From positions 1-21,779 of the IMG/VR virus record IMGVR_UViG_3300009786_002901: DNA of 21,779 bases; one strand, given 5' to 3'. Made by a program: the position numbers and the translations under genes. Shown here one piece after another: positions 1 to 14,385 of this stretch. The stretch is from a virus. The notes under the pieces are model-generated. The model saw only the letters and a list, made by a program, of their open reading frames with translations, was not told where the DNA came from and ran no database searches. Positions within the stretch are counted from its first letter, which is position 1. Every line of letters begins with the position of its first letter.

Positions 1-2191
1 CTAAATCTTCACCAGAAACCGTTTCCGTTAAATCTACTGAACCAGTAATACCACCACCAGTTGCAGGTTTGGGACGATTTGCTTGTTTTTCAGCCTCATC
101 CGCATCTATCTCTGCCTCAGTAAGTGGTTTCCTAGCAACTAACGTACTATAATGGTCACCTGTGCGATGAGGTACAATAAATAATTTATCAGGAGAAAGA
201 GGGGTTTTCCACTCTCTCGTGGAAGAATATGTACCTTCAGGATATAATGCTTGTCCTTCTCCAAAAGACTCAACACTGGAGTTTAGGGCTTCAACATCAG
301 CCCTTCTAGCATAGATGGTGACATCCCCAGGATAACCTCCGCTCTTACCGCCAATACCAAACACTCCCTTTTTCATGCCTTCTTTGTTTATCTGGAACGC
401 ATTAGGGAAGGAAGTATGGTGCCAAACATACTTCTTGTTAAATTCTTTTCGTGTTAAATCCCAAGGATTATCTTCCTTAGGAGCTTGATCCATTTCTTTA
501 GGGCGTATCCATCTACCAGGGGCTTCTGTATCTCCTGTTTGGGGGACAAGTCCTTTAGCTCTTGCTGCCATACCTTCAGGAGTAATATCCTTAAGCAAGT
601 CTTTAAACTGTTGAAAAGAACTCTTAGCAACAAAATTTTCTGAAACGAATTTCATAGCTTCTGCTTTGTTTGTAAGACTGCCATCCTCTTGTTGAGAACG
701 CACAGCTCTTAAAATTTTTCCTAGCTCCGGCCCTTCCTTAAATCCGGCCCCAAGTAACTCATTTCCAGTAATTAATGAAGCAATTTTTCCCTCAGGCGTA
801 ATAACAATTGCTTCAGAAATTTCTTTCAGCTTTGCTTCGAACCAATCAATTTCTTCTGTTCCAGGTTCCACCAGGGTACCAGCTTCATTTTGGTGAAGTC
901 TTCCAGTTACATCTGCTCTGGATACAGCAGATAATAATTTTAACCGACGCATTCCATACTTGTTAATCATCTTTCTAAATCCTGTGTCTTTAAGCCCATT
1001 TCTATGGGAATTCATAGGAAGTAGATGATGTTCAACTAAGAAGGATACATCGGCTATAGTTTCAGTTTCAGTTGTTAATTTCCCCAAAAAAGCCTTGGTT
1101 GGCTCTACACCAGCCGCTTCATGTCCATGTTGAGTAATTGTCCCCTCTGGGGAGTGCTCCGTAGTATTTGGTTTGCCAAAATCATGCACAAAGGCCGCTA
1201 GCATAATTGTCTTCTGATCTTGGTGAGAACGGAAGTTTTTAATTATATTTGCAGCCTTATCAATTACCATGTTTGTGTGTATGTACACATTTCCTTCTGC
1301 ATGATAATCCGGGCGTTGCTCAGTGGTTTTCAACACAGAGACTTCAGGAAAATACTTATCCAATACTCCCATATCATCAAGAGCACGGATACCAACAGAA
1401 GGTTTAGGGGACTTTAAAAATAGTTTCTTAAACTCCTCATAAAGCCTTTCTGGTGGTAAGTGGCTTAAATCCATAGATGCTGCCAATTTTTGTGTTTCCG
1501 GATGAATGGTAAAACCAAATCTTCCTGCAAATTGAGCAGCACGATATACCCTAAGAGCATCTTCAACAAAAGTATTATCATCAATATGCTTTAGAAGTTT
1601 ATTTTCTAGGTCTTGTAGTCCACCAAAGAAATCCGATATTTGCCCAGTCTTTGGGTTATACATCAACGCATTAATAGTAAAATCTCTACGCCTAGCCCCA
1701 TCGTGAGGAGCTAAATTTTCATCAAACTCTACATCAAAATCAGTATGTTTTTCCCCAGTTTTTACTTCTTTTCGTGGAAGAGATATATCAAAATCTCCAA
1801 ACTTAAATACTCCAAATTGTTTACCAACCTGTTGAGGTTTTTCGCCCAATTCGGACTCTAAAATGTGCCCAAGTTTTTCCGATGATATTCCATAAACTTC
1901 AATATCAAAATCCTTGGATTTATGACCAAGAATAATATCCCGCACACTTCCTCCAACCATATAGGGAGTTCCATGCTTCCCAAGAACAGAGAGAACCTTT
2001 TTTAATTCTGGCTCACTTTTAATTATTTCTTGAATTTTTTCAGAATGCGATAGCTCATCAACGCGAGAAAACCACGCAGGATGGTCTTTTACTCTCACAG
2101 GATGTGAAGGCAAAAGATTCTCATGATCGTGGTAAGCTCGTTGATTAGCTTTTGAAAGTTCGTTTGTAAAATCTTCCAGTCTAGACGCCAT
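1..2191 (-). CDS. cca: CCA-adding tRNA nucleotidyltransferase with HD domain and long C-terminal extension (partial)
   Basis: The frame is open from an ATG at 2189-2191 to the left edge (730 residues seen, no stop), so the C-terminus is missing. Residues 1-520 match class II CCA-adding enzymes / poly(A) polymerases, which add or repair the 3' CCA of tRNA: GGSVRD at 80-85, the metal-binding pair D94/D96 (DFDIEV), RRRDFTINAL around 167-176, EDALRVYRAA at 210, then an HD phosphohydrolase domain with H297, H305 and H336-D337 (HDFGKP), as in bacterial Cca. The enzyme body usually ends after a motif like ITGNELLGAGF (near 472). Here about 200 further residues follow, with WHHT at 590-593, KEGMKKGVFG and YARR; I cannot assign this part, but the His-Thr and EGM pattern loosely recalls ADP-ribosyltransferase folds. 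It is the last gene seen after the portal, and its ribosome site (AAAGAGA) is weak. Enzyme call is firm; extension is unknown. Confidence 0.9.
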   Translation of the reverse strand, partial: MASRLEDFTNELSKANQRAYHDHENLLPSHPVRVKDHPAWFSRVDELSHSEKIQEIIKSEPELKKVLSVLGKHGTPYMVGGSVRDIILGHKSKDFDIEVYGISSEKLGHILESELGEKPQQVGKQFGVFKFGDFDISLPRKEVKTGEKHTDFDVEFDENLAPHDGARRRDFTINALMYNPKTGQISDFFGGLQDLENKLLKHIDDNTFVEDALRVYRAAQFAGRFGFTIHPETQKLAASMDLSHLPPERLYEEFKKLFLKSPKPSVGIRALDDMGVLDKYFPEVSVLKTTEQRPDYHAEGNVYIHTNMVIDKAANIIKNFRSHQDQKTIMLAAFVHDFGKPNTTEHSPEGTITQHGHEAAGVEPTKAFLGKLTTETETIADVSFLVEHHLLPMNSHRNGLKDTGFRKMINKYGMRRLKLLSAVSRADVTGRLHQNEAGTLVEPGTEEIDWFEAKLKEISEAIVITPEGKIASLITGNELLGAGFKEGPELGKILRAVRSQQEDGSLTNKAEAMKFVSENFVAKSSFQQFKDLLKDITPEGMAARAKGLVPQTGDTEAPGRWIRPKEMDQAPKEDNPWDLTRKEFNKKYVWHHTSFPNAFQINKEGMKKGVFGIGGKSGGYPGDVTIYARRADVEALNSSVESFGEGQALYPEGTYSSTREWKTPLSPDKLFIVPHRTGDHYSTLVARKPLTEAEIDADEAEKQANRPKPATGGGITGSVDLTETVSGEDL

Positions 2192-2204
2192 TTAATTAAT
2201 CTCT

Positions 2205-2633
2205 TTAAACGTTTATTAGTATCTCTTTCAAAGCATCGGAAAATGAAGTACCTGTTCCAATTAGCCAAGTACCTTCATTATTTTTTTCAAAATTAGCTGC
2301 AGATAGGATAATTTCACAAGGAAGTTCTTCTTCATTATGGTTTATTCTAACTGTATACCTAACAAAGGTTTTATCTAACCATCGTTTTCCCGCCTCATAA
2401 TTAAGTATAACACTATTTGAAACATTAGTCAATGTATAATTTTCTTTATAGTCAAAATCTATTTCAGGTTCTGCTAGGGCAGTTTCCGTAGATTTAATTG
2501 TTTTCATATCTGATAGGAGTGTTAGTAACTTTTCGATCCCTTCTTTACTTTTATCTTGTCCGGTTCTTTTGTTGTGTCCACGTAAAAATCTACTTCCACA
2601 CTCTTGACCACAACCGCATTCACAAATATTCAT
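2205..2633 (-). CDS. Small zinc-binding protein with CxCGCG...GHN N-terminus
   Basis: A 142-residue protein of unknown function. The N-terminus reads CECGCGQECGSRFLRGHN (C4, C6, C8, C12, H20). This Cys/His signature occurs at the start of many short phage proteins and some phage HNH nucleases and probably holds one zinc. The rest (about 45-142) shows no HNH or other catalytic motif; alternating hydrophobic stretches suggest a small beta-rich domain. The start is well placed: AGGAG lies 6 bases upstream, inside the end of the preceding gene, whose stop is 2 bases from this ATG, so the two are translationally linked. The CCA enzyme gene follows after 13 bases. Not recognised beyond the zinc motif. 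Confidence 0.75.
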   Translation of the reverse strand: MNICECGCGQECGSRFLRGHNKRTGQDKSKEGIEKLLTLLSDMKTIKSTETALAEPEIDFDYKENYTLTNVSNSVILNYEAGKRWLDKTFVRYTVRINHNEEELPCEIILSAANFEKNNEGTWLIGTGTSFSDALKEILINV

Positions 2634-2635
2634 TT

Positions 2636-3052
2636 CTAACTCCTAAGTTGTTGTTGTAAAGCATTATTAATTATTTCTTTAACATCTGATATTGGCTCTT
2701 TATATTCTTCCTTTAACCATCGAATACGTCCCACTGGATGTACATTAGATGCAAAAATATTGTCCATTTCTTGGGAAAGCTCTTCTAACATAAGATATTC
2801 TTCCAATCCATCATGAACACCTAATAAAATCCCTTTCATACAGCGTCCCCAATTTTCATCATCATCTTCCCATTCAGCCCATATAGCTAAATCCGCCGGT
2901 TTGCCTGAGGGGGATGCCATTACTGATGAAGTAAAGAACTCCCCAACTCCTTGTACTCGTTGCTCACTAAATTGTTCCTTAATTTCTGTGGAACTATACC
3001 GTTCTTTAAGGTTTTCTACCGCTACTCCGTAAATAATTCTCCAAATTTGCAT
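2636..3052 (-). CDS. Hypothetical protein downstream of portal
   Basis: A 138-residue soluble protein that I do not recognise. It is Trp- and acid-rich in the middle (AIWAEWEDDDENWGR near 76-90), with predicted amphipathic helices in the C-terminal half and no signal peptide, membrane segment or Cys cluster. A GAGGA ribosome site lies about 5 bases before the ATG. It sits between the portal gene and a small zinc-motif gene with 18 and 2 bases of spacing, so it is co-transcribed with the head/packaging genes. Its position suggests a head-assembly or virion accessory role, but that is inference from context only. Confidence 0.7.
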   Translation of the reverse strand: MQIWRIIYGVAVENLKERYSSTEIKEQFSEQRVQGVGEFFTSSVMASPSGKPADLAIWAEWEDDDENWGRCMKGILLGVHDGLEEYLMLEELSQEMDNIFASNVHPVGRIRWLKEEYKEPISDVKEIINNALQQQLRS

Positions 3053-3070
3053 ACTATTCCTCGTTTCTTA

Positions 3071-5056
3071 TTAACCTAAATCTGGTGTTACAGGCTCTTC
3101 CGCATCAAACTGATTACCCTCACTTCTGGGTTTGCGATCAAGTCCTGCCGAATGTTTTATGTTTGTATCATGATGTGGCCTACCACTATGGACATGCATC
3201 CTCGCAGGTACATACTTCTCTATATCCAGCACATTACCATTGTGTAATGTTGCTTTATATAATGGAGAATCATTAACATTAAAGATTACATGATCCGCTG
3301 TTACTTCATGCATTGCTGGAAAGGCGTATCCTTTATCTGCTAATTGTTTATATAAGGGAACAAACTCAGAGGAGCCCATTTTACTTAAAGTAAGGTTTGG
3401 TTCTTGAGCAACGTCCCCGCCAGCATCTTCTTCCGTTTCACTGTCTTCATCTTCAGGCCAGGGGGCAGCAGCGTCTCCAAGATCGCCGCCACCCATAGTA
3501 GATTCCATCATAGCTTTCTGTTGTTCAATTGGGTTTAGAGCTTCACCAGAAATTTCGAATTCAACATTATCTATACCCATCTTTCCCGCTTTAATTTCTA
3601 TATTGAAACCCATTTGGAGAAGCATGTTTGCTACCGATACTCTTTGTTGAGCGAAAGCGATTCTAGTTGCTTCAGCCTTTTCTTCCGGTTGTTTCAATTC
3701 TAGAACCCAATCTGTAATACCAAAAGCTTCTAGAAGAGGTGGAAATACTTGTTCATGTAGAATACGTTGATCGCCTTCTACAACCCTAGACATCACTGTT
3801 AATTGTTGTGTTTGTGAAGACATACCACCATATGCATCGGGGGAACCCTGCCAAGCAGGAGTAACTCCCCACATTGCGGCAATTCTTTCACGAATTTCTT
3901 CTCTAACCGGTAAATAATCCATTTCCTGAAGGGTGTGGAAAAGTCTAACCATATCTACTCTTCCTCTACCCTGTTTCGTACCTACAGCCACCATTGGGAT
4001 GTAGTTTGGATCATAGCGCATTTTAGCTGCAATGTTATCCCTTTCTCTACGTAAGGATTCAGGATCATCTGTAAATACTAGTAACATAGAGGCAGGCATT
4101 CTACGCTCAAAGAAATACCTATAAACGTTTAAGTCCATTCCTCTAATTGTTAAAATCTTGTGCATTAAGGTTAGAAGTGGACTATAACCATAGGTTTCGG
4201 AATGATAAAATTTACTTGCGTGAATAACCTCAGAATCTAGAAGGTAGAATGGGTGTGCACGATAATTATATTTATACATGGCCGCTACTAGAGGTCGATC
4301 ACATTCGCCACAATGTCCAGGGCTTTCTGCAGGCTCGATATCTCGATGGATATAACAAAGCCAGTGAGAGTTTTTAGGTAAGCCTTCAGGACTTAAATCC
4401 CATTCCATATAAGCTGGGTTTAAACGTCTAATTTCAATCGGTTTAGAACGTACTGTTCCTTCAGCCCCTTCAATATATTCTTTAACAATATGTAAAAACA
4501 TATCATCGAGAGAATTTATATCAAACCAAAGAGCTCGTAAAATAGATTCAAAAGACATGTCAAAAACATTTGAATCTGACATAAATTGATCAAAATTCTT
4601 CTTTTGGACTAGAGAAGGTTTAATAAGTTCGCCTTCCTCTACCTCCTCTCCTTTTTCCATCGCTGCTTTTTTCCTGGCGGATAGAGATTCTTTACACTCT
4701 TCGCATTCTTCGATTGGTGATGTATATTCTGTACTACACAAAGTACATTTAACGGCAAATTTAGGCTTCCATTCGATCCCTCGACGGAAAACCTCATTAA
4801 TAATATGATTAATTGGGGCGCGTACTTCTTCAGTGTTTTTTGCAAACTCAATTAATTGAAAAACTTGCTGTTGTCGATATTGTAGTTGTTGACTAACATA
4901 CCCACCGTAAAGTAAATCTAAGCCAAGGGTAGGGGAACGGTATGTATCAGCACCTTCGGCACTTTTCATTAACGATACTGTATTAAACAATTGGTTCATT
5001 TGCGCCTGTTGTTTAATAACGCCTGGTAATTCTGGAAGATATTTTTTTAAATCCAT
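3071..5056 (-). CDS. Phage portal protein with Cys-cluster insertions and extended C-terminus
   Basis: A 661-residue protein that I call the portal, the dodecameric ring at the capsid vertex through which DNA is pumped. Support: location one gene group after the terminase, and a portal-type core with an N-terminal helical region, EVIHASKFYHSETYGYSPLL around 278-297 (the usual wing/clip motif giving GxSPL), a long stem helix region and VTPAWQGSPDAYGGMSSQ around 400-420. Two Cys/His clusters are unusual: C104-x2-C107...C118-x2-C121, and C234, H237, H248, C249, C252; both look like zinc ribbons inserted in the N-terminal half. After the core an acidic linker (PWPEDEDSETEED, near 540-552) leads to about 100 more residues ending in a His-rich stretch. 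The ribosome site is AGG about 7 bases before the ATG. No protease domain is visible. Confidence 0.85.
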   Translation of the reverse strand: MDLKKYLPELPGVIKQQAQMNQLFNTVSLMKSAEGADTYRSPTLGLDLLYGGYVSQQLQYRQQQVFQLIEFAKNTEEVRAPINHIINEVFRRGIEWKPKFAVKCTLCSTEYTSPIEECEECKESLSARKKAAMEKGEEVEEGELIKPSLVQKKNFDQFMSDSNVFDMSFESILRALWFDINSLDDMFLHIVKEYIEGAEGTVRSKPIEIRRLNPAYMEWDLSPEGLPKNSHWLCYIHRDIEPAESPGHCGECDRPLVAAMYKYNYRAHPFYLLDSEVIHASKFYHSETYGYSPLLTLMHKILTIRGMDLNVYRYFFERRMPASMLLVFTDDPESLRRERDNIAAKMRYDPNYIPMVAVGTKQGRGRVDMVRLFHTLQEMDYLPVREEIRERIAAMWGVTPAWQGSPDAYGGMSSQTQQLTVMSRVVEGDQRILHEQVFPPLLEAFGITDWVLELKQPEEKAEATRIAFAQQRVSVANMLLQMGFNIEIKAGKMGIDNVEFEISGEALNPIEQQKAMMESTMGGGDLGDAAAPWPEDEDSETEEDAGGDVAQEPNLTLSKMGSSEFVPLYKQLADKGYAFPAMHEVTADHVIFNVNDSPLYKATLHNGNVLDIEKYVPARMHVHSGRPHHDTNIKHSAGLDRKPRSEGNQFDAEEPVTPDLG

Positions 5057-5077
5057 TTAATAACCTGTTTTTGCTTC

Positions 5078-5596
5078 TTAGGCTCCTGAATTATTGATTA
5101 GTTCCGCGACTTGTAAATCTAGATTCCCTTTATTACTCATTGTCTCATAAAGATCTAATTTTCGCATACGATATTCATGATCATCAGAAGAATATTGAAC
5201 CTCTGTTTGACCTTCCAGTAAGACAATATTAGCAATGTTTAAGTCAGCTACTTCTTGTTGTAGTTCTGCAATTGTTTTAAGTAGTTCTTCTTCTCTACTT
5301 AGATCAAGCCCTTCATCTGCAATATTAAAAAGGGGCTTTTCTCCATTAGCGGCTGGCATATAATTTTGTACTTCTACTTCATGCATTAAAGCAAGAAATT
5401 GACCTTCTTTAAGGATTAGTACGGCATCTGAATCATCCGGAATATCTAAATCATCTGTCAATTGGATGGTCGTCATTTCTGGGTGCCAAGTATCTAAAAT
5501 ACGCCAAATTCCATAATCATCTCGATTTGCTACGTATTGTACTTTTCTTTCTCGTAAACTATTTCCAATTTCAATATTCCCAAAATCTGTGGACAT
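5078..5596 (-). CDS. Hypothetical coiled-coil protein upstream of portal
   Basis: About 172 residues; function not recognised. The N-terminal half is beta-like (GIWRILDTWHPEM), then a heptad-like segment SREEELLKTIAELQQEVADL (about 101-120) predicts a coiled coil, followed by a charged helix. I chose the ATG at 5594-5596 because AGGTGA lies 5 bases before it. A GTG at 5603-5605 would add three residues (MKK) but overlaps that ribosome site and has none of its own. It is the first gene after the promoter at 5638-5667 and is followed by the portal gene after 21 bases, so it leads the portal transcript. A scaffold or portal-associated role is possible but unsupported. Confidence 0.75.
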   Translation of the reverse strand: MSTDFGNIEIGNSLRERKVQYVANRDDYGIWRILDTWHPEMTTIQLTDDLDIPDDSDAVLILKEGQFLALMHEVEVQNYMPAANGEKPLFNIADEGLDLSREEELLKTIAELQQEVADLNIANIVLLEGQTEVQYSSDDHEYRMRKLDLYETMSNKGNLDLQVAELINNSGA

Positions 5597-5637
5597 TTTC
5601 TTCACCTATTTATAAACTTTTCTTTCTATACTATTAT

Positions 5638-5667
5638 ATTATACCTTATATGGGTATATAGATGCAA
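5638..5667 (-). promoter_or_regulatory. Sigma-A/sigma-70-like promoter before portal operon
   Basis: On the minus strand, TTGCAT (5662-5667) is followed after 18 bases by TATAAT (5638-5643). The -10 box is tandem: a second overlapping TATAAT occupies 5633-5638. The element fills the gap between the ribonucleotide reductase stop (5671) and the coiled-coil gene, and would start an mRNA about 30 bases before its ribosome site. It implies that portal and downstream genes can be transcribed independently of nrdJ. Confidence 0.65.
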
Positions 5668-5670
5668 TTT

Positions 5671-7962
5671 TTAATCGCATTTACCATACCCACAAGATTC
5701 ACATTCCGCGCAACCACTTCTTTGAATTATTCTTCCATTACATTTTTGACATTTTGGACTCTTTTCTGCCAATTTAAGAGGTTGTTCTTGCATAGAAGCA
5801 AATTTATTAATTTCCCTTCCTTCAAAATTCTTCTTCATGCTTTTTGCAACTCCATCTGAAGGAGATAGAACCAATTGACCTTTATGCCAAGCAGGACAAC
5901 ATGTAATACCCGTTAATTGATAAACAATATCCTCGTATGAAATTCCCTTTTGTAAGCTCATCGAAATCAACCTTGCAATTGTTTCAAGAAAGGCTGTATC
6001 ACACCCACCAGCTTTTCCACCAGTAAGAATCACCTCATGAGGCTTACCATTCCAATTCGTCGTAACCAATAATCTACCGTGTCCAGTATTCCACTTAGAG
6101 GTAATTCCTTCTAAATCATCAGGTCGTTCTATATTCCCAGGCTCAGGAAAGTTACTCTCATTAATCCCCCAATCACTTTCAAGCTTTTCCTCTAATTGCC
6201 CTATAAGAGCTTCCGTTTTCCCAGTTTCTACAGTTGAAGATAGCACTTCTACCTCTCTAGTACCAGAACGGTACACCGTAACACCTTTGCACTTTAATTG
6301 CCACGCCTGAAGATAAATTTCTCGTATTTCGTCTGCAGTAAGATCATTTGGGGCATTAATAGTTTTAGACACCGCATTTGAAGTATGTTTTTGCCACATT
6401 GCTTGCATATTAAGGTGCGCTTTTGGCGTAATATTAAGTGCGGTTTGATAGATCTCCGGATCAAGGAACTCTCGAAGTTCTGCTAGTAATGCCTTTGGCT
6501 CGTTTTTATGAGTTTCTAATAAATCGAGGCTTACACGGCCACCTTCTTTATCGGAGTCATATTTTCTAACTAAAGCTTCTCTAATACCTTTAGCACAATC
6601 CACCATCTTTGTTGTATTTTCTCCAGTATCATCTTTCCAAAGGATATTAGATTCCCACACAAGGTCAAATAGCGGCTCAATACCGGAAGAACAGTCTGCT
6701 AATCTACTAATAGTTCCTGTAGGCGCAATAGTAATTACTGATGAGTTTCTTACTGGACGTGCACCTGGAATATTAAAAGCTGAATTTTTCCATTCAGGAT
6801 ATGGGCCATCTTTAATAGCCAAGTTTGCTGAAGCATCCCAAGCACTTGTACTAATTGCGGAACCAATATTATCCGCTTCATTAAGAGCCTCTTGAGAATC
6901 ATAAGGAATACCAAGAGAAATTAAAGCATCGGCCCATCCCATAATACCAAGACCAATTCTGCGTGTGGCTAAATTAACATCTCTTAACGCTTGAAAGGCA
7001 AATTCATTTACATCAATAACACCATTAAGGAAACCAACGGCTGTATGAACTGCTAAATCAAGCCTGGCATAATCCCATTGACCATTAACAACAAACTTAG
7101 ATAAATTAATAGAGCCTAAGCAACAGCTATTACCATCCTCCAAATACTCCTCACCACAAGGATTACTGGTCATTATATCCCCAAGTTGAGGATTTGGTTG
7201 TGTTTCCCAAACACGGTCTATAAAAGCAATACCAGGGTCACCAGTGGCATGTGCTGAATCACATAGCTCTTGCCACAATTCCTTAGCCATTAAAGTCTCT
7301 GTAATTAAACCGGTATGGGGATCAATTAAATCCCATTGCAAATCCCCAATAACAGCTTCCATAAAAGCATCAGTAATTTGTACTGAAATATTAAAATTCT
7401 GTAAAGAATCAAACCCATCTTTACAGTGAATAAATTCTCGAATATCAGGATGAGATATAATAAGTTGTCCCATATGTGCTCCTCGACGGAAACTTCCCTG
7501 TGTAATCATGGAAGCATTATAGGAAATCATTTTAAGTACGTTTACTGGCCCAAGAGCTTGCCCATGAACAGTACCAATATGCGCCCCTTTACTTCGAAGT
7601 TTACTTACACCAACGCCAATACCGCCCCCCCATTTTTCAATCATGACAATATCCTTTAATACATCCATGATTGAATTCATATCATCTTCAGGGCTACGGA
7701 CAAAACAAGCACTCAAACAACCTTTATTTGCTCCCGCATTTACTAAAGTAGGAGAATTAGGATGAAATTCACCAAGAGCCATCATCTTATAATAAGAATC
7801 CTCTAAATCAGTTTGTCCATTGGCTACATGCTTGGCTACTCTTAAATACATTTGATCTGGGGTTTCTACTAACTTTCCTTCACTGTCTTTCATTAGGTAT
7901 CGATCTTCTAAAATTGTAATTATATTGGGGGTTATTCGTTGCTCAGCTAAATTATATTCCAT
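5671..7962 (-). CDS. nrdJ: Class II (adenosylcobalamin-dependent) ribonucleotide reductase
   Basis: A 763-residue vitamin B12-dependent ribonucleotide reductase, which makes deoxyribonucleotides from ribonucleotides without oxygen or a separate radical-generating subunit. Key residues: first redox Cys in SACFV (C86), radical-site NPCGE (N267, C269, E271), second redox Cys in SCCLGSINL (C280), and the phosphate-binding APTGTIS (413-419). After the barrel comes a TSCPD-type domain (around 615-710, with GGCDTAFLETIARLIS and GITCCPAW), then a C-terminal zinc ribbon (CQKCNGR...CAECESCGYGKCD) with the terminal Cys pair expected to re-reduce the active site. There is no N-terminal ATP-cone: the barrel begins almost at once. 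AGGAG lies 6 bases before the ATG. It lies 14 bases after the large terminase gene, inside the packaging module, an unusual place for a nucleotide-metabolism gene. It likely works with a host thioredoxin system and imported B12. Confidence 0.95.
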   Translation of the reverse strand: MEYNLAEQRITPNIITILEDRYLMKDSEGKLVETPDQMYLRVAKHVANGQTDLEDSYYKMMALGEFHPNSPTLVNAGANKGCLSACFVRSPEDDMNSIMDVLKDIVMIEKWGGGIGVGVSKLRSKGAHIGTVHGQALGPVNVLKMISYNASMITQGSFRRGAHMGQLIISHPDIREFIHCKDGFDSLQNFNISVQITDAFMEAVIGDLQWDLIDPHTGLITETLMAKELWQELCDSAHATGDPGIAFIDRVWETQPNPQLGDIMTSNPCGEEYLEDGNSCCLGSINLSKFVVNGQWDYARLDLAVHTAVGFLNGVIDVNEFAFQALRDVNLATRRIGLGIMGWADALISLGIPYDSQEALNEADNIGSAISTSAWDASANLAIKDGPYPEWKNSAFNIPGARPVRNSSVITIAPTGTISRLADCSSGIEPLFDLVWESNILWKDDTGENTTKMVDCAKGIREALVRKYDSDKEGGRVSLDLLETHKNEPKALLAELREFLDPEIYQTALNITPKAHLNMQAMWQKHTSNAVSKTINAPNDLTADEIREIYLQAWQLKCKGVTVYRSGTREVEVLSSTVETGKTEALIGQLEEKLESDWGINESNFPEPGNIERPDDLEGITSKWNTGHGRLLVTTNWNGKPHEVILTGGKAGGCDTAFLETIARLISMSLQKGISYEDIVYQLTGITCCPAWHKGQLVLSPSDGVAKSMKKNFEGREINKFASMQEQPLKLAEKSPKCQKCNGRIIQRSGCAECESCGYGKCD

Positions 7963-7976
7963 TAAGTTCTCCTATA

Positions 7977-9701
7977 TTATGTATTAATTTGCATTGTGTT
8001 GCTTAACTCTGTTTCATCCTCAGAGTTATCAGTATTTAGAGGGGCGGAATTTATCATAGCCATAGTAGCGGTTTCTTCATCCTCATTTAATTTTTGAGAA
8101 TGGCAAACAATACAAAGCTGATTTTCAAATACCCAACCCACCCCACTATGCTCACAGATTGGGCAAGCAAGTTTACGTTTATCCCCTTCTGCTAAGCCCT
8201 CTTCCTTACGTTGGAAATCTAGAGATTCCATTGCTGCTGAATCATCTCCCATACTAACCATGTCTAATAGGTTTCCTACATCTTGGGTGTGTCCTTTTAT
8301 TGATTCAACGTGAGCAAAAACAGCCATCGCAATTGACCAGAAAGAATCACCATGTCCTGCTGGAGTTTCTGCGGCTGTTAAAGTGTTATCAACACATACA
8401 ATTTGAGAGCGTTGACGATGATCTACAATTAATTTAAGGTTGCCTTTATTGACATATTCTTCAAATTTAGAAGACATATATCTACGTTGTTTTGGTGTAA
8501 AGATAATAGGTTCCCAAACTGAATTTATTTCCCGATCTTCTAACATTGGCATAGTATTATCAAAGAAACCTTTATCGATATCAAAGTTCTCCGCCACTAA
8601 GTTTAGGAAATCAGCTTGCGTAGTAAAATCAACCCCATCTAGGAAGGTGCTATTTATTTCAATAAGATCCGGTTTCCCTATTTGGCTTTTAAATACACAT
8701 AAATGTGATGGATGCCGTTTTTTACCAATATCAAAACCAGCGACTGTTAAATCACTTTTTAGGTCATGATGATAAGCATATGGATCTAAATTTGCTAATT
8801 CTATATCTTCAACAGATTTAATTTCTTCAATACTTAAGAAAGCATTAATAGTAGAAACTGGATTTAACATGAACTCAGCAGAGAAAATCTTAGGTCGCTG
8901 ACTTTCATATTGTTCTAACCACTCCCTACTGCGTATCTCAGGAGCTAAAACATCTCTCCCTGGTACTGGATTAAAGACTGGGAGCACACACGTATCAAAC
9001 GCATCATCATTTTGAAGATCTGATAATAAGTCATTTGTATCCATTGGTGTTCCCATAACAATAATAGGAGCACCAGGGTTAGGAACAAGCATCGTTTCTT
9101 TCATAAAGAAATCTTTTGCTTTTTCTAATTCCCCAGTATTAAGAGGGTTTTCAGCGTCTCTTAATATATCATCCGCAATTAATCCGCCATCGACGTGCAT
9201 CCCTCGCTTAAAGTTAAACAAGCCTGCTGGAACAATCTCAATATGAATGCCATTAACTAAGTATTTAAAAACACCGTCAGCATCAGACGATCTATCCTTC
9301 ATTAAAGGATAAAGAACCGGATTATTTCTAATTTCTTTTTTAATTTCTGAAATATGATACCTAGTCATTTTTTCAGTGAAACTGACATAGACTATTTCAG
9401 TATCTTTTGTAGCCTTTAAAAGTCGCCACACGGCAAAGCCATGTCCTAGAATAGTACTCTTGTAGTGACCTCTAGGGAGTACGGCAACATAATGCTGTCC
9501 TGTTTCCATACATTCTTCTACATCACGACATATTTTTTTTACATGCCATGCTTGAAAATGTTCTGGTTTCTCAAAACCTTGCGACCAAATATCCCGTATA
9601 AATTCATAAAAGGTACCAATATGTAACGTTTCTTCATTAATTAGGGTGCTAGCCAGCCTATCAAAAGCGTCTACAAACCCAACTTCGGTTGTTTTTACCA
9701 T
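7977..9701 (-). CDS. terL: Terminase large subunit (packaging ATPase and nuclease)
   Basis: 574 residues. This is the motor that pumps DNA through the portal and cuts the concatemer. The N-terminal ATPase has Walker A LPRGHYKST (75-83), Walker B GLIADD (173-178) with catalytic acids D177/D178, and a coupling-type MGTP motif (216-219). The C-terminal RNase H-fold nuclease has D324 (AGFDIGKKRH), a middle acid region near 381 (FDNTMPMLEDRE) and D452 (HGDSFWSIAMA). A further zinc ribbon follows the nuclease: C513-x2-C516...C530-x2-C533, then an acidic tail. Typical large terminases are 400-600 residues without this ribbon. The start is the only near option (a stop lies 6 codons upstream in frame) but it lacks a clear Shine-Dalgarno. 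A stem-loop separates it from terS. Confidence 0.95.
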   Translation of the reverse strand: MVKTTEVGFVDAFDRLASTLINEETLHIGTFYEFIRDIWSQGFEKPEHFQAWHVKKICRDVEECMETGQHYVAVLPRGHYKSTILGHGFAVWRLLKATKDTEIVYVSFTEKMTRYHISEIKKEIRNNPVLYPLMKDRSSDADGVFKYLVNGIHIEIVPAGLFNFKRGMHVDGGLIADDILRDAENPLNTGELEKAKDFFMKETMLVPNPGAPIIVMGTPMDTNDLLSDLQNDDAFDTCVLPVFNPVPGRDVLAPEIRSREWLEQYESQRPKIFSAEFMLNPVSTINAFLSIEEIKSVEDIELANLDPYAYHHDLKSDLTVAGFDIGKKRHPSHLCVFKSQIGKPDLIEINSTFLDGVDFTTQADFLNLVAENFDIDKGFFDNTMPMLEDREINSVWEPIIFTPKQRRYMSSKFEEYVNKGNLKLIVDHRQRSQIVCVDNTLTAAETPAGHGDSFWSIAMAVFAHVESIKGHTQDVGNLLDMVSMGDDSAAMESLDFQRKEEGLAEGDKRKLACPICEHSGVGWVFENQLCIVCHSQKLNEDEETATMAMINSAPLNTDNSEDETELSNTMQINT

Positions 9702-9746
9702 GTGGAAAACACTGTATTAAGTAGCTTTAACTATGCCTTAAAATAG

Positions 9747-9785
9747 ATATAGATAGGCCGACCTATTGTGCCAGCCTATCTATAT
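9747..9785 (-). terminator. 12-bp perfect stem-loop between terS and terL
   Basis: ATATAGATAGGC at 9747-9758 is perfectly complementary to GCCTATCTATAT at 9774-9785, with a 15-base loop. In the minus-strand RNA it comes 33 bases after the terS stop and is followed by CUAUUUU, a short U-rich tail. This could be a weak intrinsic terminator that lowers terL read-through, or an mRNA stabilising or processing hairpin. The stem is A+T-rich, so termination would be inefficient. It could also be DNA-level structure such as a packaging recognition site. Confidence 0.5.
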
Positions 9786-9794
9786 ATTTTACCA
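9786..9794 (-). promoter_or_regulatory. Possible extended -10 promoter for terL
   Basis: On the minus strand, TGG-TAAAAT (9786-9794) fits an extended -10 element (TGn plus a -10 box with one mismatch). No good -35 box is present. Transcription would start about 9779, so the terL mRNA would begin with the 9747-9785 hairpin as a 5' stem-loop. Weak support; it is an alternative reading of the same gap. Confidence 0.25.
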
Positions 9795-9817
9795 TAAATT
9801 AGCCTAAGATGGAAGCC

Positions 9818-10342
9818 TTATTCTTTAGAATATTTTTGAAATATTTTACGTAGCTCAAGGCCAATCTTTCTTTTCATATCGTCATCAGTAATAATAGTAG
9901 TGATAGCCGATAACACATCATCAATAAACTGTAAATTAATAGTTTCTTTCGCAATTTTACGTTGTCCGTTAATTGCTAATTCAATTGCTTTTGATGCTTC
10001 CATAGCAGAGGTAAACTCCATTTCTGGAAGCTCATCAGTACCTTTCTTTAGAATAATTTCTAAAGCTTTTTCATGCTGTTCTTTTTTAGCAACCTGCTCC
10101 TCAATTTCTCTACTACGTGTCCTAGAAATAACTTCAACTTCCATGTTTTTAATAACCTCTGGAAGCATATTATTTTCTACCCATTTACGAATAGTAATTT
10201 CTTTAGGGAGCCCCTTTTCACCTAAGACAGGAATATATTCCTTACATATCTTTTCATATACTTTGTGTACAGATTGTAATTCTAGGTAAAGTTCAATTGC
10301 TCGTAATCTAATCCCCGGTGCGTAAGCCATGTTTTTTCTCAT
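9818..10342 (-). CDS. terS: Probable terminase small subunit
   Basis: 174 residues directly before the large terminase, the usual place for the DNA-recognition subunit that starts packaging. The N-terminal third reads like a helix-turn-helix (RLRAIELYLEL...HKVYEKICKEY...EITIRKWVEN, about 12-56), the middle is charged and helical (RTRSREIEEQVAKKEQHEKA, a likely oligomerisation coiled coil), and the C-terminus is helical and ends in KYSKE, as in small terminases. No catalytic motif is seen, as expected. Two starts are possible: ATG at 10340-10342 without a ribosome site, or ATG at 10328-10330 (MAYAPG) with a weak GAGAAA in front. The gene overlaps the preceding small gene by 35 bases in another frame. 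The call rests on position and architecture rather than on strong sequence motifs. Confidence 0.75.
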   Translation of the reverse strand: MRKNMAYAPGIRLRAIELYLELQSVHKVYEKICKEYIPVLGEKGLPKEITIRKWVENNMLPEVIKNMEVEVISRTRSREIEEQVAKKEQHEKALEIILKKGTDELPEMEFTSAMEASKAIELAINGQRKIAKETINLQFIDDVLSAITTIITDDDMKRKIGLELRKIFQKYSKE

Positions 10343-10550
10343 ATAAAATAGCTTCGTCTTGTAGCTCTTCTAACTTAGTTATTAAGCCTTCTTCAACTGC
10401 TCTATATACCTTCCAATGTACATTATCTGGTGGGTATCCATCCGAATGTTTTTTTATTGCTGCCTTAAATATCTCTATCTCAGACAGCATTTTTTTATAT
10501 TGTTCCTGTCCTGTTACTTGAGGATGAGAAAGAGGGTCACGAAACTTCAT
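10308..10550 (-). CDS. Small hypothetical protein before terS
   Basis: 80 residues, charged and mostly helical (EQYKKMLSEIEIFKAAIKKH and ITKLEELQDEAILYEKKHG), with no Cys, signal or membrane segment. Its ATG shares a base with the stop of the preceding gene (TAATG), so translation is coupled. Its 3' end overlaps terS by 35 bases. The tight packing into the terS transcript suggests a DNA-packaging accessory, but I do not recognise a family. Confidence 0.65.
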   Translation of the reverse strand: MKFRDPLSHPQVTGQEQYKKMLSEIEIFKAAIKKHSDGYPPDNVHWKVYRAVEEGLITKLEELQDEAILYEKKHGLRTGD

Positions 10551-10774
10551 TATTCTTCGCGCTTCATATTATCAGTGTTGAACGTTGTTCCATGAGGGCA
10601 AGTGATCGAAAACCCTCCTGGAAACAGTAAATTCCATCCTTCCTTTTCTTCGTTAGGTGAGTCCATAATAAAGATACAACCATCATCTAAAGGAATTTCT
10701 ACTATATAAGGCATCGCCTCTTTAGGAAGGGTTACTTCAATTATAGGTTTCTTCTCTTCTTCATCAGTAACCAT
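10550..10774 (-). CDS. Small acidic hypothetical protein
   Basis: 74 residues, acidic, probably a small beta domain (IIEVTLPKEAMPYIVEIPLDDGCIFIMDS). Contains only two Cys (C33, C59), the second in TCPHGTTF. It is coupled at both ends by 1-base stop/start overlaps (TAATG): its start overlaps the stop of the Cys-rich gene upstream and its stop overlaps the start of the next small gene. The three genes thus form one translational chain leading into terS. Family unknown. Confidence 0.65.
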   Translation of the reverse strand: MVTDEEEKKPIIEVTLPKEAMPYIVEIPLDDGCIFIMDSPNEEKEGWNLLFPGGFSITCPHGTTFNTDNMKREE

Positions 10775-11208
10775 TATCTTATGCCGAAAGCCCCCGCGTC
10801 AAAATCAGAATCCTTAGGATCATCATAAACATGGTGTTCAATCTTATCAGGATCAGGCATATGTGGAGTAGTTGTTGTACGGTCAGCGCGTACTCGACAA
10901 GAAGTAAATTTTTGTGCTTCTGTTACTTTAATACTAGAACGTATTACTTGTCTAGCCATTCCTACATCCCCACGACCACAGACACCAGTAAAGTAATCAT
11001 CAGCAAAGGGCTTATGGCCTCTACCCCTATATACTTCATACTTGTAAGGAAGGTCAATATTCCACTTACATTCCTTATCATTGCAATAGAGAAGCTTTGC
11101 ATTAGCAAATGCTAGCTCTACACACCCCTTTCCTTCAGGATCACAGTGACACGTTACCCCTTCCTTATACCAACACTGTCTTTCTTCTAGTTTAATCTCT
11201 TTACTCAT
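10774..11208 (-). CDS. Cys-rich hypothetical protein
   Basis: 144 residues with eight Cys: C12, C20, C22, C29, C42, C47, C77 and C104. The spacing CxC...C and CNDKEC suggests at least one zinc-binding or Fe-S knuckle in the N-terminal half. The C-terminal quarter is polar and low in structure (TTTTPHMPDPDKIEHHVYDDP). AGAGGG lies 7 bases before the ATG, a good ribosome site. The 69-base gap upstream is A+T-rich, with TATAAA-like stretches but no convincing -35. It begins the translationally coupled chain that ends at terS, so it is expressed with packaging genes. I do not recognise the family; DNA binding or a virion role are both open. Confidence 0.7.
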   Translation of the reverse strand: MSKEIKLEERQCWYKEGVTCHCDPEGKGCVELAFANAKLLYCNDKECKWNIDLPYKYEVYRGRGHKPFADDYFTGVCGRGDVGMARQVIRSSIKVTEAQKFTSCRVRADRTTTTPHMPDPDKIEHHVYDDPKDSDFDAGAFGIR

Positions 11209-11277
11209 CAGTTTCCCTCTACAATTCTTTTATATTTATAAGTTAGTTATCGTATTTAAAAGCCAATTCCAAATGTA

Positions 11278-11748
11278 TTACAATATAATAAACCCTTCTG
11301 TACAGGTATACATTCCACTACCAATTTTATTGGTAACAAAGGTATCACTTTGTGGTTCAAATAATTCAGCCGTTCCATCAGAGAATATTACACAATTATA
11401 AGCGTGTCCTCCCGAATAGTCAACCACCAATCCAACATTGTTTAGGTGAAACTTCCTATCCATCCTGGCTTTAAAGCTAAAGGCGAAGTTATCGCAGTCA
11501 TATTTCTCTGCTACATATGTCTTTTCATCTGTCCAATCCCAATTAATAATAGCTTCAAAATCTAGCCTACTACAGGCCCAGTATTTATTATCAAGTCGCT
11601 TACGACTCATTCCGGTATGGTTTACCATTTTTCCGGAATGCAACGCCAAATTAATTTCCCCGTTAGTTAACTCTGTATATCCTTCAACCAGTTCAGGAGG
11701 TGTTAAATGGTCACATAGGTTTTTAAGTCTATCTGCTATGATTCCCAT
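11278..11748 (-). CDS. Probable papain-fold (Cys/His/Glu) phage protein
   Basis: 156 residues. The layout C85-D-N-F-A, then GGH115-AYN, then LFE131-PQ is the order of a papain-like (transglutaminase/NlpC-type) Cys-His-Glu triad. Similar CDNFA...HAYN...EPQ proteins occur as small unassigned genes in other phages. No signal peptide or cell-wall-binding domain is present, so an endolysin role is not indicated; a peptidase, amidase, transferase or inactive scaffold all remain possible. It overlaps the preceding coiled-coil gene by 13 bases and has GAGG 10 bases before its ATG. The motif order is seen directly; the fold is inferred. Confidence 0.65.
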   Translation of the reverse strand: MGIIADRLKNLCDHLTPPELVEGYTELTNGEINLALHSGKMVNHTGMSRKRLDNKYWACSRLDFEAIINWDWTDEKTYVAEKYDCDNFAFSFKARMDRKFHLNNVGLVVDYSGGHAYNCVIFSDGTAELFEPQSDTFVTNKIGSGMYTCTEGFIIL

Positions 11749-11969
11749 TTCTTAATAACCTCTTCTAATTCATCTAGCATAGCTAATGCTTCTTGATGAT
11801 CTTTATTTAAAAGGGCTACATTATTTTGTAATCCTATAATATGGGCATTTAAATCTGCATTTACCAAAATTAATTCCGAGAATTTTTCATTCTCTTCATT
11901 GCCAGATATTTCCACCTTGAGGAAAATCTTTTTTAATCTTATAATCAAGTCAAGAAGTTTCTCAACCAT
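11736..11969 (-). CDS. Small coiled-coil hypothetical protein
   Basis: 77 residues, almost entirely helical. A hydrophobic N-terminus (MVEKLLDLIIRLKKIFLKVEI) carries regularly spaced Lys/Arg, so it looks amphipathic rather than membrane-spanning; a Leu-rich heptad-like second half follows (NVALLNKDHQEALAMLDELEEVIKK). A GGGGGT ribosome site lies 6 bases before the ATG. It lies 12 bases after the 57-codon Cys-rich gene and overlaps the next gene by 13 bases. Size and helicity resemble small spanin-like or regulatory phage proteins, but nothing decides its function. Confidence 0.6.
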   Translation of the reverse strand: MVEKLLDLIIRLKKIFLKVEISGNEENEKFSELILVNADLNAHIIGLQNNVALLNKDHQEALAMLDELEEVIKKWES

Positions 11970-11981
11970 TTATAACCCCCA

Positions 11982-12155
11982 TTAAATTTTTAGTAGTTTA
12001 TTTGCCGTGGTTGCCATCGCTTGTAAGAATGGGGAAGGGGTAATTCGAGCTGGAATTACTCTGCTACCAGTATCCTTATGGCAAATACAATCACATTGGC
12101 TTGGAGTGTGTCTACATCTAGTATGTAATGTTTTTATACAAAAGGGTCTTGTCAT
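11982..12155 (-). CDS. 57-residue Cys-rich microprotein
   Basis: A short gene that gap filling reveals. ATG at 12153-12155 shares one base with the resolvase stop (TAATG), and AGAGGA lies about 11 bases upstream. The 57 residues begin MTRPFCIKTLHTRC and carry C6, C14, then QCDCICHK (C21, C23, C25, H26), enough ligands for a small zinc or metal knuckle, followed by a basic polar tail. The same 1-base coupling is used by two other gene pairs nearby (10774 and 10550), which supports reality. It fills most of the 185-base space between the resolvase and the coiled-coil gene. Function unknown; a DNA- or protein-binding knuckle acting with the resolvase is conceivable. Confidence 0.6.
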   Translation of the reverse strand: MTRPFCIKTLHTRCRHTPSQCDCICHKDTGSRVIPARITPSPFLQAMATTANKLLKI

Positions 12156-12721
12156 TATGCGACTTTTCCTCTTTTCTTTTTAGTTACCACGGTTTTCTTC
12201 TTTTTTGGTTCCGCTTTTACAGGGATTACATTTATGGTACCATTTAATAATATATATTGATGAAGGGCTAAACAAGCCGCATCTTTGAAGTCCTGTATTT
12301 CGAATGGGTGCTTTTTCCATTTAGTTTCAGCAAATTTTGCTATATCTTCTTTGCTTGCATTACCTCTACCAAGAATTGATTTCTTCCAAGTAGTATTAGC
12401 ATAACTAAAACAATGCACTCCGACATTCAAGGCGGCTATTTCACAAACCACCACTGAACGATCTAGTGCGAAAGACACTTTAATATTATTTAAATATAAT
12501 GGCTCTTCAATCGCTAGTGTTACATCATCTGCCGTTATTTCTTGAGCATCAATGAAAGCAATGAGCCAATCTTCTACTGCTTCCATCATCAAATGCCCCC
12601 GTTCTATATCCTTTTTTTCTGTAACTTCTATTTGTTTTTGTGTATAAATATTTGAGCCTTCATCTAAAACTGAGAAAAATAAAGAATACTTACCCACGTC
12701 TACCCCTATAGTAAATTTCAT
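12155..12721 (-). CDS. RuvC-like Holliday junction resolvase
   Basis: 188 residues with an RNase H-like fold of the RuvC type: D8 in GVDVGKYS (strand 1), acidic pair in AIEEPLYL (E72/E73), and the C-terminal helix QDFKDAACLALH with D144 and D147, giving the four-acid active site. A lysine-rich tail (KAEPKKKKTVVTKKKRGK, about 169-186) probably binds DNA. Phage resolvases of this class cut branched DNA left by replication and recombination so that concatemers can be packaged. It is the first gene behind the strong promoter at 12783-12811 and leads the unit that runs to terS, which fits a job just before packaging. AGG lies 6 bases before the ATG. Length is close to bacterial RuvC (about 170). 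Confidence 0.85.
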   Translation of the reverse strand: MKFTIGVDVGKYSLFFSVLDEGSNIYTQKQIEVTEKKDIERGHLMMEAVEDWLIAFIDAQEITADDVTLAIEEPLYLNNIKVSFALDRSVVVCEIAALNVGVHCFSYANTTWKKSILGRGNASKEDIAKFAETKWKKHPFEIQDFKDAACLALHQYILLNGTINVIPVKAEPKKKKTVVTKKKRGKVA

Positions 12722-12782
12722 CCTAAACCTATTATTTTTTATACTTGGTCTAATACTATGACTTTACTTGTATTCACTTCTT

Positions 12783-12811
12783 ATTATATCACGTTTTATC
12801 GCTTTTGGCAA
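12783..12811 (-). promoter_or_regulatory. Near-consensus sigma-A/sigma-70 promoter before resolvase
   Basis: On the minus strand, TTGCCA (12806-12811, one mismatch to TTGACA), a 17-base spacer, and a perfect TATAAT (12783-12788). Transcription would start near 12776, giving a leader of about 55 bases to the resolvase gene. It lies 10 bases past the hairpin that ends the replication operon, so this gap is a terminator-promoter boundary. The match to consensus implies use of the unmodified host polymerase. Confidence 0.8.
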
Positions 12812-12821
12812 TAGGTATTAA

Positions 12822-12857
12822 GGGCCATAAAGTTAAATTGTTGTTTTCTTATGGCCC
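12822..12857 (-). terminator. Hairpin closing the replication/recombination operon
   Basis: GGGCCATAA (12822-12830) pairs perfectly with TTATGGCCC (12849-12857) around an 18-base loop. In minus-strand RNA it begins 10 bases after the stop of the coiled-coil gene and is followed by UUAAUA, a poor U-tract. It is probably a weak terminator or a 3'-end stabilising hairpin; location just before a strong promoter supports a transcription-unit boundary. Confidence 0.5.
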
Positions 12858-12867
12858 AATTATTCTT

Positions 12868-13359
12868 TTACACTTGGTCTGAGGATGCCGCTCTAATGGC
12901 AATTACTCTGGACACTGTAGCATATTGGGATACATACGCATCCCTCAACCCCTTTATTCGTGTTGCTAAGGCTTCTTTTTCTATTAAGTGTTTCCTTAAA
13001 GCGTTTAATTCCTCATTCCCATCTAACGCTTCCCCACGTAAAAAATCTTTAGTTGGTTTCTTTACGCTTGCGGCCACATACTCTTTTTCAGTAAAATACA
13101 TTGATTGAGATAGTGCAGCCTCGTAAGAAGCTTCTATAGCACCTTTTTCCGATTCAACTTCACCTAATTGTGCTTCTAGATAGCTTTTATACCCACCAAA
13201 AAATGAAAGTTGCTCCTCTAAATCCTTATTTGATTTATCTTGTAAATTTTCAAGAGCAATCGTTTCTCTTTCTAGTTTTTCTATTGAAAACTCCGGTACT
13301 TTTAACTGCGCTACAAAAACATTAATTCTAGCTTTAACATCATCGGTAAACCTACTCAT
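12868..13359 (-). CDS. Coiled-coil protein at end of recombination operon
   Basis: About 163 residues, nearly all helical, with long charged heptad-like stretches (IEKLERETIALENLQDKSNKD and EALATRIKGLRDAYVSQ), no Cys and no catalytic motif. I place the start at ATG 13357-13359 because GAGGAG lies 9 bases before it and the overlap with the exonuclease gene is then only 8 bases. An in-frame ATG at 13407 would add 16 residues but has no ribosome site and overlaps by 56 bases. It is the last gene before the hairpin. Position after a Cas4-like exonuclease and RecA hints at a recombination accessory or exonuclease partner, but no family is recognised. Confidence 0.7.
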   Translation of the reverse strand: MSRFTDDVKARINVFVAQLKVPEFSIEKLERETIALENLQDKSNKDLEEQLSFFGGYKSYLEAQLGEVESEKGAIEASYEAALSQSMYFTEKEYVAASVKKPTKDFLRGEALDGNEELNALRKHLIEKEALATRIKGLRDAYVSQYATVSRVIAIRAASSDQV

Positions 13360-14110
13360 CGTCTTCGACTCCTCGGCAATTACACCAATTCGGATGATTT
13401 GGGCCATCCACTGACTTCAGTGTTGGCATCTTCTTTGTACTCATAATTCTTTCAGCCCTATCTATAACCAGTTGCCAAGCGGCAGGATCTTTATCTATTT
13501 GAAACATTTTCACTTTTTGAGTATCTTTATTTTCATATAATACAATTCCGAATGGATAATCTAGCATATTTAAATAAGATTGCAATTGAATTTCATGTTC
13601 TGGTTTTGGGGTACTCAAGCCATCAAAACCTCGACTATTAATAGTTTTTAATTCTACTACAAAACGTTTAATGCCTGCTTTAGCTGACGTTAGTATAAAA
13701 TCAGCCCGTCCACTGATGGGAGGATTTTCATTTGTTGCCCTAACTTCACGCTCTATATACATTATACCATGTTCAAAGTACTTTGTATATCTCTCTTCTG
13801 CGGCACTTCCATGATCAAAAATACGTTGCTTTACTTGATCTATATCTTCGTCTGGTAATAATCTATTCCAATGCAACCATAAATAACGATCACAAGGATT
13901 ACCTATTGCCGAACAGTGAAATGATTGAACCCCACTTGATACGTGAGGATTTACATTTGCTGTCTTATAAATACCTTCTTCAAGCTGATCAGCAAACCAT
14001 AAAAGACCCTTATCTCTTGAATACCTACTTTTTTTTGCTTGGGTTTCCAAAGGTTTTGGGTGGGTCTTCGATAATAGTTGCATTAAGCTTGATTCTTGTT
14101 TTTCTGGCAT
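13352..14110 (-). CDS. Cas4/RecB-like PD-(D/E)XK exonuclease
   Basis: 252 residues. The nuclease core is visible in order: H100 with E106 (DHGSAAEE), D137 in ISGRADFIL, E153-x-K155 in VVELKT, and the Q175...Y179 motif (HEIQLQSYL), as in Cas4/AddB/RecB-family exonucleases. Cys at C66 and C73 (HCSAIGNPCDRYLW) and a C-terminal CNC (C243, C245) may hold the Fe-S cluster typical of Cas4, though the C-terminal spacing is tighter than the usual three-Cys pattern. The likely role is end resection for RecA-mediated recombination. It overlaps the small nuclease gene upstream by 28 bases and the coiled-coil gene downstream by 8. No close ribosome site precedes the ATG, so translation is probably coupled. 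No CRISPR genes are nearby. Confidence 0.85.
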   Translation of the reverse strand: MPEKQESSLMQLLSKTHPKPLETQAKKSRYSRDKGLLWFADQLEEGIYKTANVNPHVSSGVQSFHCSAIGNPCDRYLWLHWNRLLPDEDIDQVKQRIFDHGSAAEERYTKYFEHGIMYIEREVRATNENPPISGRADFILTSAKAGIKRFVVELKTINSRGFDGLSTPKPEHEIQLQSYLNMLDYPFGIVLYENKDTQKVKMFQIDKDPAAWQLVIDRAERIMSTKKMPTLKSVDGPNHPNWCNCRGVEDDE

Positions 14111-14385
14111 AAAAAGTTTTGTAACTCCGAATAAATTTCTGGTTTTGTTTGTCCTTTAATATGGAATATTTCTTCAACCCCCATTTCAAGTAAGGCGGCA
14201 TCCCTATCTCGATCAGCTTGTAAAAAATGCCCAAAAACACCATCGGCCTCAACCACAATAGTATCTTCCACTAGGAAGTCTACATAATATTTCCCAATTT
14301 GTCTTTGTTCATGATACCGTAAGCCCATTGCATCGAGACATTCACCAACTATTATTTCTTGTTTTGTAAAATCTGAATCAGGCAT
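14083..14385 (-). CDS. Small Vsr/DUF559-like nuclease
   Basis: 100 residues matching the restriction-endonuclease-like fold of the DUF559/very-short-patch-repair group: an N-terminal helix with E15, then QRQIGKYYVDFLVED (D36), IVVEADGVFGH (E46, D48, H53) and the following RDRDAALLEMG with R61. Such proteins cut or nick DNA, and phage copies may act in recombination, repair or host DNA attack. The domain fills the whole protein, so there is no fused partner. Its ATG directly abuts the macro-domain stop (TAAATG) and its end overlaps the exonuclease gene by 28 bases. The two nucleases are thus coupled, which suggests joint work in recombination. Substrate unknown. Confidence 0.75.
   Translation of the reverse strand: MPDSDFTKQEIIVGECLDAMGLRYHEQRQIGKYYVDFLVEDTIVVEADGVFGHFLQADRDRDAALLEMGVEEIFHIKGQTKPEIYSELQNFLCQKNKNQA

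Follow-up and report, generated by a model that had tools for sequence, protein, structure and literature searches.

This locus raises the question of why a phage would encode a complete CCA-adding enzyme next to its portal gene, and of what protein that enzyme forms part. The stretch analysed here, referred to as the window, is a whole linear viral fragment of 21,779 bases. The gene lies at its edge (2..2191, minus strand), where it has an intact ATG start and no stop and runs off the contig end at base 1. The 730 aa that remain are the 5′ part of a large modular polyvalent-protein gene.

Domains and relatives of the CCA-adding enzyme

The class II tRNA nucleotidyltransferase and its HD domain together occupy residues ~64-520 of the window ORF. 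The head, a Pol-beta nucleotidyltransferase (residues 77-200; 1592..1963, minus strand), carries a GGxVRD motif at residues 80-85 and the DxD pair at D94/D96, and matches PF01743 with E 1.7e-22 (E 9.8e-26 over the whole record). A conserved EDxxR template motif (E210-D211-x-x-R214) stands just ahead of the neck or RNA-binding domain (residues 226-284; 1340..1516, minus strand; PF12627, E 1.3e-10, 41 bits). The HD phosphohydrolase domain that follows (residues 302-429; 905..1288, minus strand) has its metal ligands conserved and was recognised by PF01966 (32 bits) and by TIGR00277 HDIG (28.8 bits, over the cut-off). The head, neck and HD matches all exceed the Pfam cut-offs; that to the CCA-enzyme tail domain (residues 454-513; 653..832, minus strand; PF13735, 23 bits) lies below the cut-off of 27. 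PHROG 2244, 'tRNA nucleotidyltransferase', matched residues 77-499 with E 4.6e-76, and the top NCBIfam model was the multifunctional CCA addition/repair protein (NF008137), at 194 bits against an equivalog cut-off of 451 bits.

The class II nucleotidyltransferase motifs and HD domain reported in the initial annotation were thus borne out by Pfam, by PHROG 2244 and by an alignment of 18 sequences. In that alignment, D94/D96, GGxVRD, EDxxR, H305, H336-D337 and D427 match their counterparts in CCA enzymes of cells. All are intact and invariant or nearly so, R84 and D85 and the D94 and D96 that had already been singled out among them, and H305, H336, D337 and D427 are invariant. The dN/dS of the CCA module, estimated by the Nei-Gojobori method among close relatives, was 0.07-0.12, and that of the portal 0.10. 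Because of these domain matches, the conserved DxD, EDxxR and HD residues and the low dN/dS, we regard the CCA/HD enzyme as real and predict an activity that is very likely functional. Matches to PcnB-type NCBIfam models and to poly(A)-polymerase PDB entries were also present, and a poly(A) polymerase is disfavoured, as the head motifs and the neck are of CCA type and the best PHROG and NCBIfam matches are CCA enzymes.

A chance or frame artefact was ruled out by the highly significant ORF and domains and by the occurrence of the same gene in independent contigs. The CCA start is identical in kind in five related phage contigs (L003, L005, L012, L013 and L016), two of which (L005 and L012) carry alternative downstream modules. 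Ahead of the enzyme lies an N-terminal motif, AYHDHENLLPSHPVRVKDHPAWF (2066..2134, minus strand), of the form HPVRVxDHxxxF. It recurs as KHKHDNFPKHPVRVIDHIKYF in a kinase-like protein of the related phage L004, which has a PI3/PI4 kinase match of 28 bits.

A search with an alignment query recovered twelve loci in the viral collection, some of them contigs found earlier, and eighteen in the genome collection. In a tree of 26 sequences, all eight polyprotein-borne phage CCA domains formed one group with support 99/100, a clustering that is partly built in because the relatives were sampled through patterns of the same phage clade. Every complete phage ORF of this group spans 1,100-2,500 aa and lies beside the portal. 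Relatives of cellular origin belong to Campylobacterota, Verrucomicrobiota and other phyla and are in most cases standalone proteins of about 460-525 aa.

The polyvalent gene and its reusable linker

The contig IMGVR_UViG_3300009706_001761 (L002) overlaps the window over 6.4 kb at 99.8% identity, which, along with the CCA start shared by the five contigs above, rules out an assembly chimera, and encodes the same 730 residues without a difference. It holds the full-length gene (4233-11819), of 2,528 aa, so that the extension of >200 residues (read as ~210) assigned to the enzyme at first was far too short. The contig of the window ends inside the gene, and for this reason the modular polyvalent nature of the protein and its recurring linker had been missed. 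The modules of the L002 protein are, in order, CCA/HD, the WHHT region discussed below, a ParB-like module, a methyltransferase, DUF192, three GNATs and a Cys-rich end. The CCA, HD, DUF192 (52 bits) and GNAT matches exceed the Pfam cut-offs, the methyltransferase match falls below its cut-off, and the ParB-like module is a weak PHROG match. This single ORF therefore joins at least two catalytic domains with dissimilar activities, as polyvalent proteins do. The next ORF encodes a topoisomerase IB, and the one after it a NUDIX domain and a weak match to 2H phosphoesterases. Among the stretches examined, none had a recognisable RNA ligase.

A segment of about 38 aa, LKDITPEGMAARAKGLVPQTGDTEAPGRWIRPKEMDQA (residues 533-570; 482..595, minus strand), follows the CCA enzyme in the window. 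With the consensus SxESIAEAKRKGLVPQSGDWxxPxRWVRPED, it parts most modules of the L002 protein and serves there as a reusable inter-module linker. Two different degenerate DNA patterns were derived from it, and scans of 2.9 million viral contigs with them yielded 17 and 13 matching stretches. Most of these were true linker copies in long ORFs, several per protein, in about ten records. The remaining handful resemble chance hits, of which we estimate that about five would be expected from the information content of the patterns. The linker was also recovered by an HMM, giving about ten viral records overall. It is absent from the cellular CCA loci, and tblastn with the 38-aa query, a search of low sensitivity, did not find it in phage isolates.

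The modules bounded by the linker in other viruses include zincin-type metallopeptidases, ART-like domains, GNAT, an SNF2-type helicase, topoisomerase IB, NUDIX and a DNA methylase. In one ORF of 1,683 aa they also include an S78 prohead protease domain. A linker-bearing ORF of about 1,700-1,860 aa (L052, 2-5050, and L076) fuses topoisomerase IB, NUDIX and DNA methylase to the S78 prohead protease; the stretches with S78 protease ORFs examined in three related phages are without the linker. The 92-kb contig concerned, IMGVR_UViG_3300037722_000409, has at least ten linker copies in the variant form PPRPGLVPQSGDW.

Elsewhere in the CCA clade, different short stretches are used at the N-terminus. 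In L004, NPNLVPKKIHEVVHRGGTTFERDRVIMV precedes the CCA domain, and similar stretches precede other modules: an element resembling LVPKKxxxxxxGKxFxxxxWVxPEE was observed ahead of ART-like, CCA, NUDIX and kinase-like domains (6814-7521, 7893-12974, 13000-13722 and 13972-15243). This short element is possibly a second linker type with an equal job.

The layouts of related phages differ at these boundaries. L005, whose CCA module is 84% identical, has a version of 1,429 aa from which the WHHT, ParB-like and methyltransferase modules are absent, so that DUF192 comes directly after CCA. In L012 (81%), one linker leads from CCA directly to the methyltransferase, and in L006 the WHHT module sits in a separate protein without CCA, behind a different linker. 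Because the layouts of L002, L005, L012 and L006 differ there, we read entire modules as having been kept or lacking with breaks at linker boundaries or close to them. In L002, the linker copies on either side of the WHHT region share 73% DNA identity over 124 bases, and it is therefore conceivable that recombination between them would allow the module to be lost. Insertions of a different kind, apparently intein/HNH-like, are present in L005 in both the ribonucleotide reductase (847-4524) and the prohead protease homologue (17865-19181); the ribonucleotide reductase of the window (5671-7962) is without one.

The WHHT module and the ADP-ribosyltransferase question

The part of the gene that follows the first linker is the WHHT region. 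Its first half, the WHHT module (residues 572-696; 104..478, minus strand), contains the WHHT sequence at residues 590-593, where it had been placed from the start, and has a 71% identical counterpart in the L006 protein without CCA. The second half begins at 2..103 (minus strand), is cut by the contig end and runs to residue ~870 in L002. The module has a dN/dS of ~0.18. L006 was its only relative in two viral scans, and none was found in isolates or plasmids.

An ADP-ribosyltransferase (ART) had been suggested for this extension, which would couple tRNA-end synthesis to an ADP-ribosylating domain and would be compatible with a polyvalent protein. Several observations point in this direction. 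The same linker precedes ART-like modules elsewhere (PF18760 in L049; KptA and DUF7002 matches, both sub-threshold, in L047). An ART-like strand-helix motif is suspected in the first half of the WHHT region, where 'YVWHHTSFPNAFQINKEGM' aligns with the 'YHGTSSAAIASIKKHGL' strand-helix of linker-borne ART-like modules in other phages; hhalign places WHHT on their YHGT strand, though weakly (P 0.017, probability 2.7%). The order of helices and strands predicted for the first half is also compatible with an ART.

The suggestion was nevertheless not borne out by the searches: up to E 10 the module matched nothing in Pfam, it had no PHROG match, and none of the PDB sequence matches was convincing. 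Structure prediction followed by Foldseek, the check proposed in the initial annotation, lent it no support either. The AlphaFold models were built from 2 and 8 aligned rows and had mean pLDDT of 37 and 59. These low-confidence models, too poor to exclude an ART, matched no fold by Foldseek (PDB, BFVD) or VIA-align. Beyond the first strand motif, the remaining residues of an H-Y-D/E (or R-S-E) triad are not placeable and a third catalytic residue is not identifiable; the second half of the region had no similarity to the ART-like modules. We therefore treat an ART identity of the WHHT module as plausible, with a chance that falls a little short of even.

Head-gene context and a proposed role in tRNA repair

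The initial annotation had placed the CCA enzyme next to the portal, and this holds: the portal gene (3071..5056, minus strand; phrog_18178, E 1.4e-42) lies only two small genes away. The terminase large subunit (7977..9701, minus strand; phrog_38, E 8.7e-33) and the portal are upstream of the CCA gene in the window. Portal, scaffold-like and capsid-like ORFs surround the corresponding gene in phage L020, and in L005 a prohead protease homologue lies downstream, sharing 47% identity with the S78 protein of another phage (G011). The gene is thus encoded among the late virion genes of a portal-terminase phage, again as polyvalent proteins are.

L020 and its kin encode topoisomerase IB and then CCA in one protein, directly after the portal and with a one-base overlap with the portal stop. 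The C-terminal domain of the window portal (3074..3373, minus strand) is found in L020 at the C-terminus of this TopoIB-CCA protein instead (BLASTP E 2e-7), and the L020 portal itself is without it. The alignment of the two ends scored 66, compared with a mean of 24, SD 4.3 and a maximum of 48 in 1000 shuffles; similarity of the domain to the L004 portal was not significant. We take the swap, seen directly in this one relative, as a hint, and the most direct sign in these sequences, that the CCA protein would belong at the portal or in the head.

The genes of the window give a mixed picture of the domain to which its host belongs. The closest isolate portals are those of the haloarchaeal tailed viruses HCTV-5/HVTV-1 and a Methanomassiliicoccales virus, at 22-27% identity, whereas RecA and DNA polymerase A resemble those of bacterial phages. 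A macro-domain protein without a Pfam match (14386-14811, minus strand) resembles 5m3i and 5m31 ('RNase III inhibitor', 'Appr-1-p processing domain protein'; E 1.9e-6), chains that we take to be DarG macro domains, and it could remove ADP-ribose added by a host DarT-like defence. A small protein (11278-11748, minus strand) has a lectin/agglutinin C-terminal domain match (PF18022, 34 bits).

The reading that we consider reasonably probable is that of a giant modular polyvalent protein with CCA/HD as its first catalytic module, which is probably packaged in the head and injected, and which mends the 3′ ends of host tRNAs early in infection. Modules strung together by the short reusable linker would be gained or lost at linkers between related phages. 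Made from the head-gene cluster, the protein would most likely be packaged in the head near the portal, perhaps be proteolytically processed, and be injected together with the DNA. Once inside, the CCA/HD module would repair host tRNAs whose 3′ ends had been trimmed or altered by host toxins, keeping translation alive before phage gene expression. If the protein is packaged, such repair would be available from the moment of DNA entry, before tRNA-end toxins of the host halt translation. Repair of tRNA ends had been suggested at the outset and remains plausible, backed by an intact class II CCA enzyme with HD in the head-gene cluster beside the portal. What is new here is the likely delivery route in the particle, for which we infer packaging, injection, processing and substrate. 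We know of no described phage strategy of virion-delivered tRNA repair. Damage of the kind that it would counter is documented: MenT3, a toxin that elongates tRNA 3′ ends, is countered by the CCA enzyme PcnA (PMC11541572), and toxSAS toxins, implicated in antiphage immunity, pyrophosphorylate tRNA CCA ends, which a phage-encoded hydrolase reverses (PMC11559606).

A more speculative idea, to which we give rather low credence, concerns the linker itself. As a standard interchangeable element, it might act as a packaging and/or cleavage tag that loads a library of enzyme cassettes, including the full CCA/HD, into the capsid. The result would be a tRNA 3′-end repair kit delivered by the virion, at work ahead of all phage gene expression and directed at host toxins by which CCA ends are trimmed, extended or pyrophosphorylated. 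Whatever its job, be it as cleavage site, packaging tag, spacer or recombination site, the conserved linker is a sequence signature by which injected effector cassettes could be traced in uncultivated phages, and it lets one ask how modular virion proteins get sorted into capsids.

Three other explanations of the fusion were weighed. The enzyme could be an ordinary late-expressed phage CCA enzyme that matures phage tRNAs, its fusion being functionally meaningless. CCA enzymes are common in phages, with matches in 459 isolate records, and tRNA genes are present in relatives of the window. The tRNA gene search proposed in the initial annotation, which had offered such maturation as its alternative, turned out against it. 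The window has no tRNA genes, and ARAGORN found nine in related phages, seven of them in CCA carriers and two in a phage that has the linker but no CCA enzyme; each of the nine encodes CCA. Since the relatives' tRNA genes already encode CCA, maturation of phage tRNAs is unlikely as the main role of the enzyme. The head-cluster location and the linkers held in common with effector-type modules also speak against this explanation as a whole, which we judge improbable; early tRNA 3′-end repair fits the data better. One relative (L068, G003:C1, 122-1732) carries three tRNA-Thr isoacceptors and one tRNA-Pro, all CCA-encoding. Because the tRNA-targeting toxin FaRel2 selects tRNA-Thr and tRNA-Gly (PMC11559606) and L068 carries tRNA-Thr, it is conceivable that these tRNAs are decoys or replacements.

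The module might instead be an offensive effector which, after injection, adds nucleotides to host tRNAs or tags them, halting or reprogramming translation in the manner of MenT-type toxins. It does sit among effector-type modules (ART, GNAT, zincin), and MenT toxins modify tRNA acceptor ends (PMC11541572). What the gene encodes, however, is no minimal toxin-like nucleotidyltransferase: the canonical class II CCA residues are all present, together with the HD domain, and purifying selection on them is strong, which makes this explanation unlikely. It is more unlikely still that the protein is mainly structural, a component of the portal or head vertex with incidental or inert enzymatic modules. 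The gene position beside the portal and the portal C-terminal domain on the TopoIB-CCA protein would suit such a part, but the catalytic residues are conserved, the CCA module has a dN/dS of ~0.1, and entire modules come and go between close relatives, a variability hard to reconcile with a structural part.

Among known systems, the nearest enzymes are themselves unremarkable. A phage CCA enzyme alone is ordinary, and restoration of tRNA ends has already been proposed for those of jumbo phages (PMC7824862). The standalone CCA enzymes of Sinorhizobium phage phiN3 (gp270) and Vibrio phage eugene 12A10 share the class II domain order of the window's. The isolate genes inspected encode unfused proteins of 411-447 aa and are not beside the portal, whereas the window's is fused and near it; since these enzymes are standalone and lie away from the portal, a virion role is not required for phage use of the activity. 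The bacterial multifunctional CCA protein (NF008137) has head, neck, tail and HD as in the window enzyme, but is standalone. What is new is the CCA/HD as a cassette of a linker-built polyvalent protein, probably delivered by the virion. T4 Alt, a head-packaged ADP-ribosyltransferase (PMC5512222), is a model for an enzyme injected with phage DNA, though the window protein, whose packaging is predicted, is of another enzyme class. The closest parallel is the class of polyvalent proteins described by Iyer et al. 2017 (PMC5512222). These are large proteins of several domains whose genes lie close to the virion genes of portal-terminase phages, and for which packaging and injection along with the DNA are predicted. 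They combine ART, GNAT, zincin, ParB-like, methylase and SNF2 modules with capsid proteases. Their Pol-beta domains are minimal NTox45-like NTases from Firmicute mobile elements, and CCA-adding enzymes, DUF192 and inter-module linkers are unmentioned in the main text of that paper. The window protein is like these in its multidomain layout and its location among virion genes, and unlike them in having a full class II CCA-HD enzyme at its N-terminus and a conserved linker between most of its modules.
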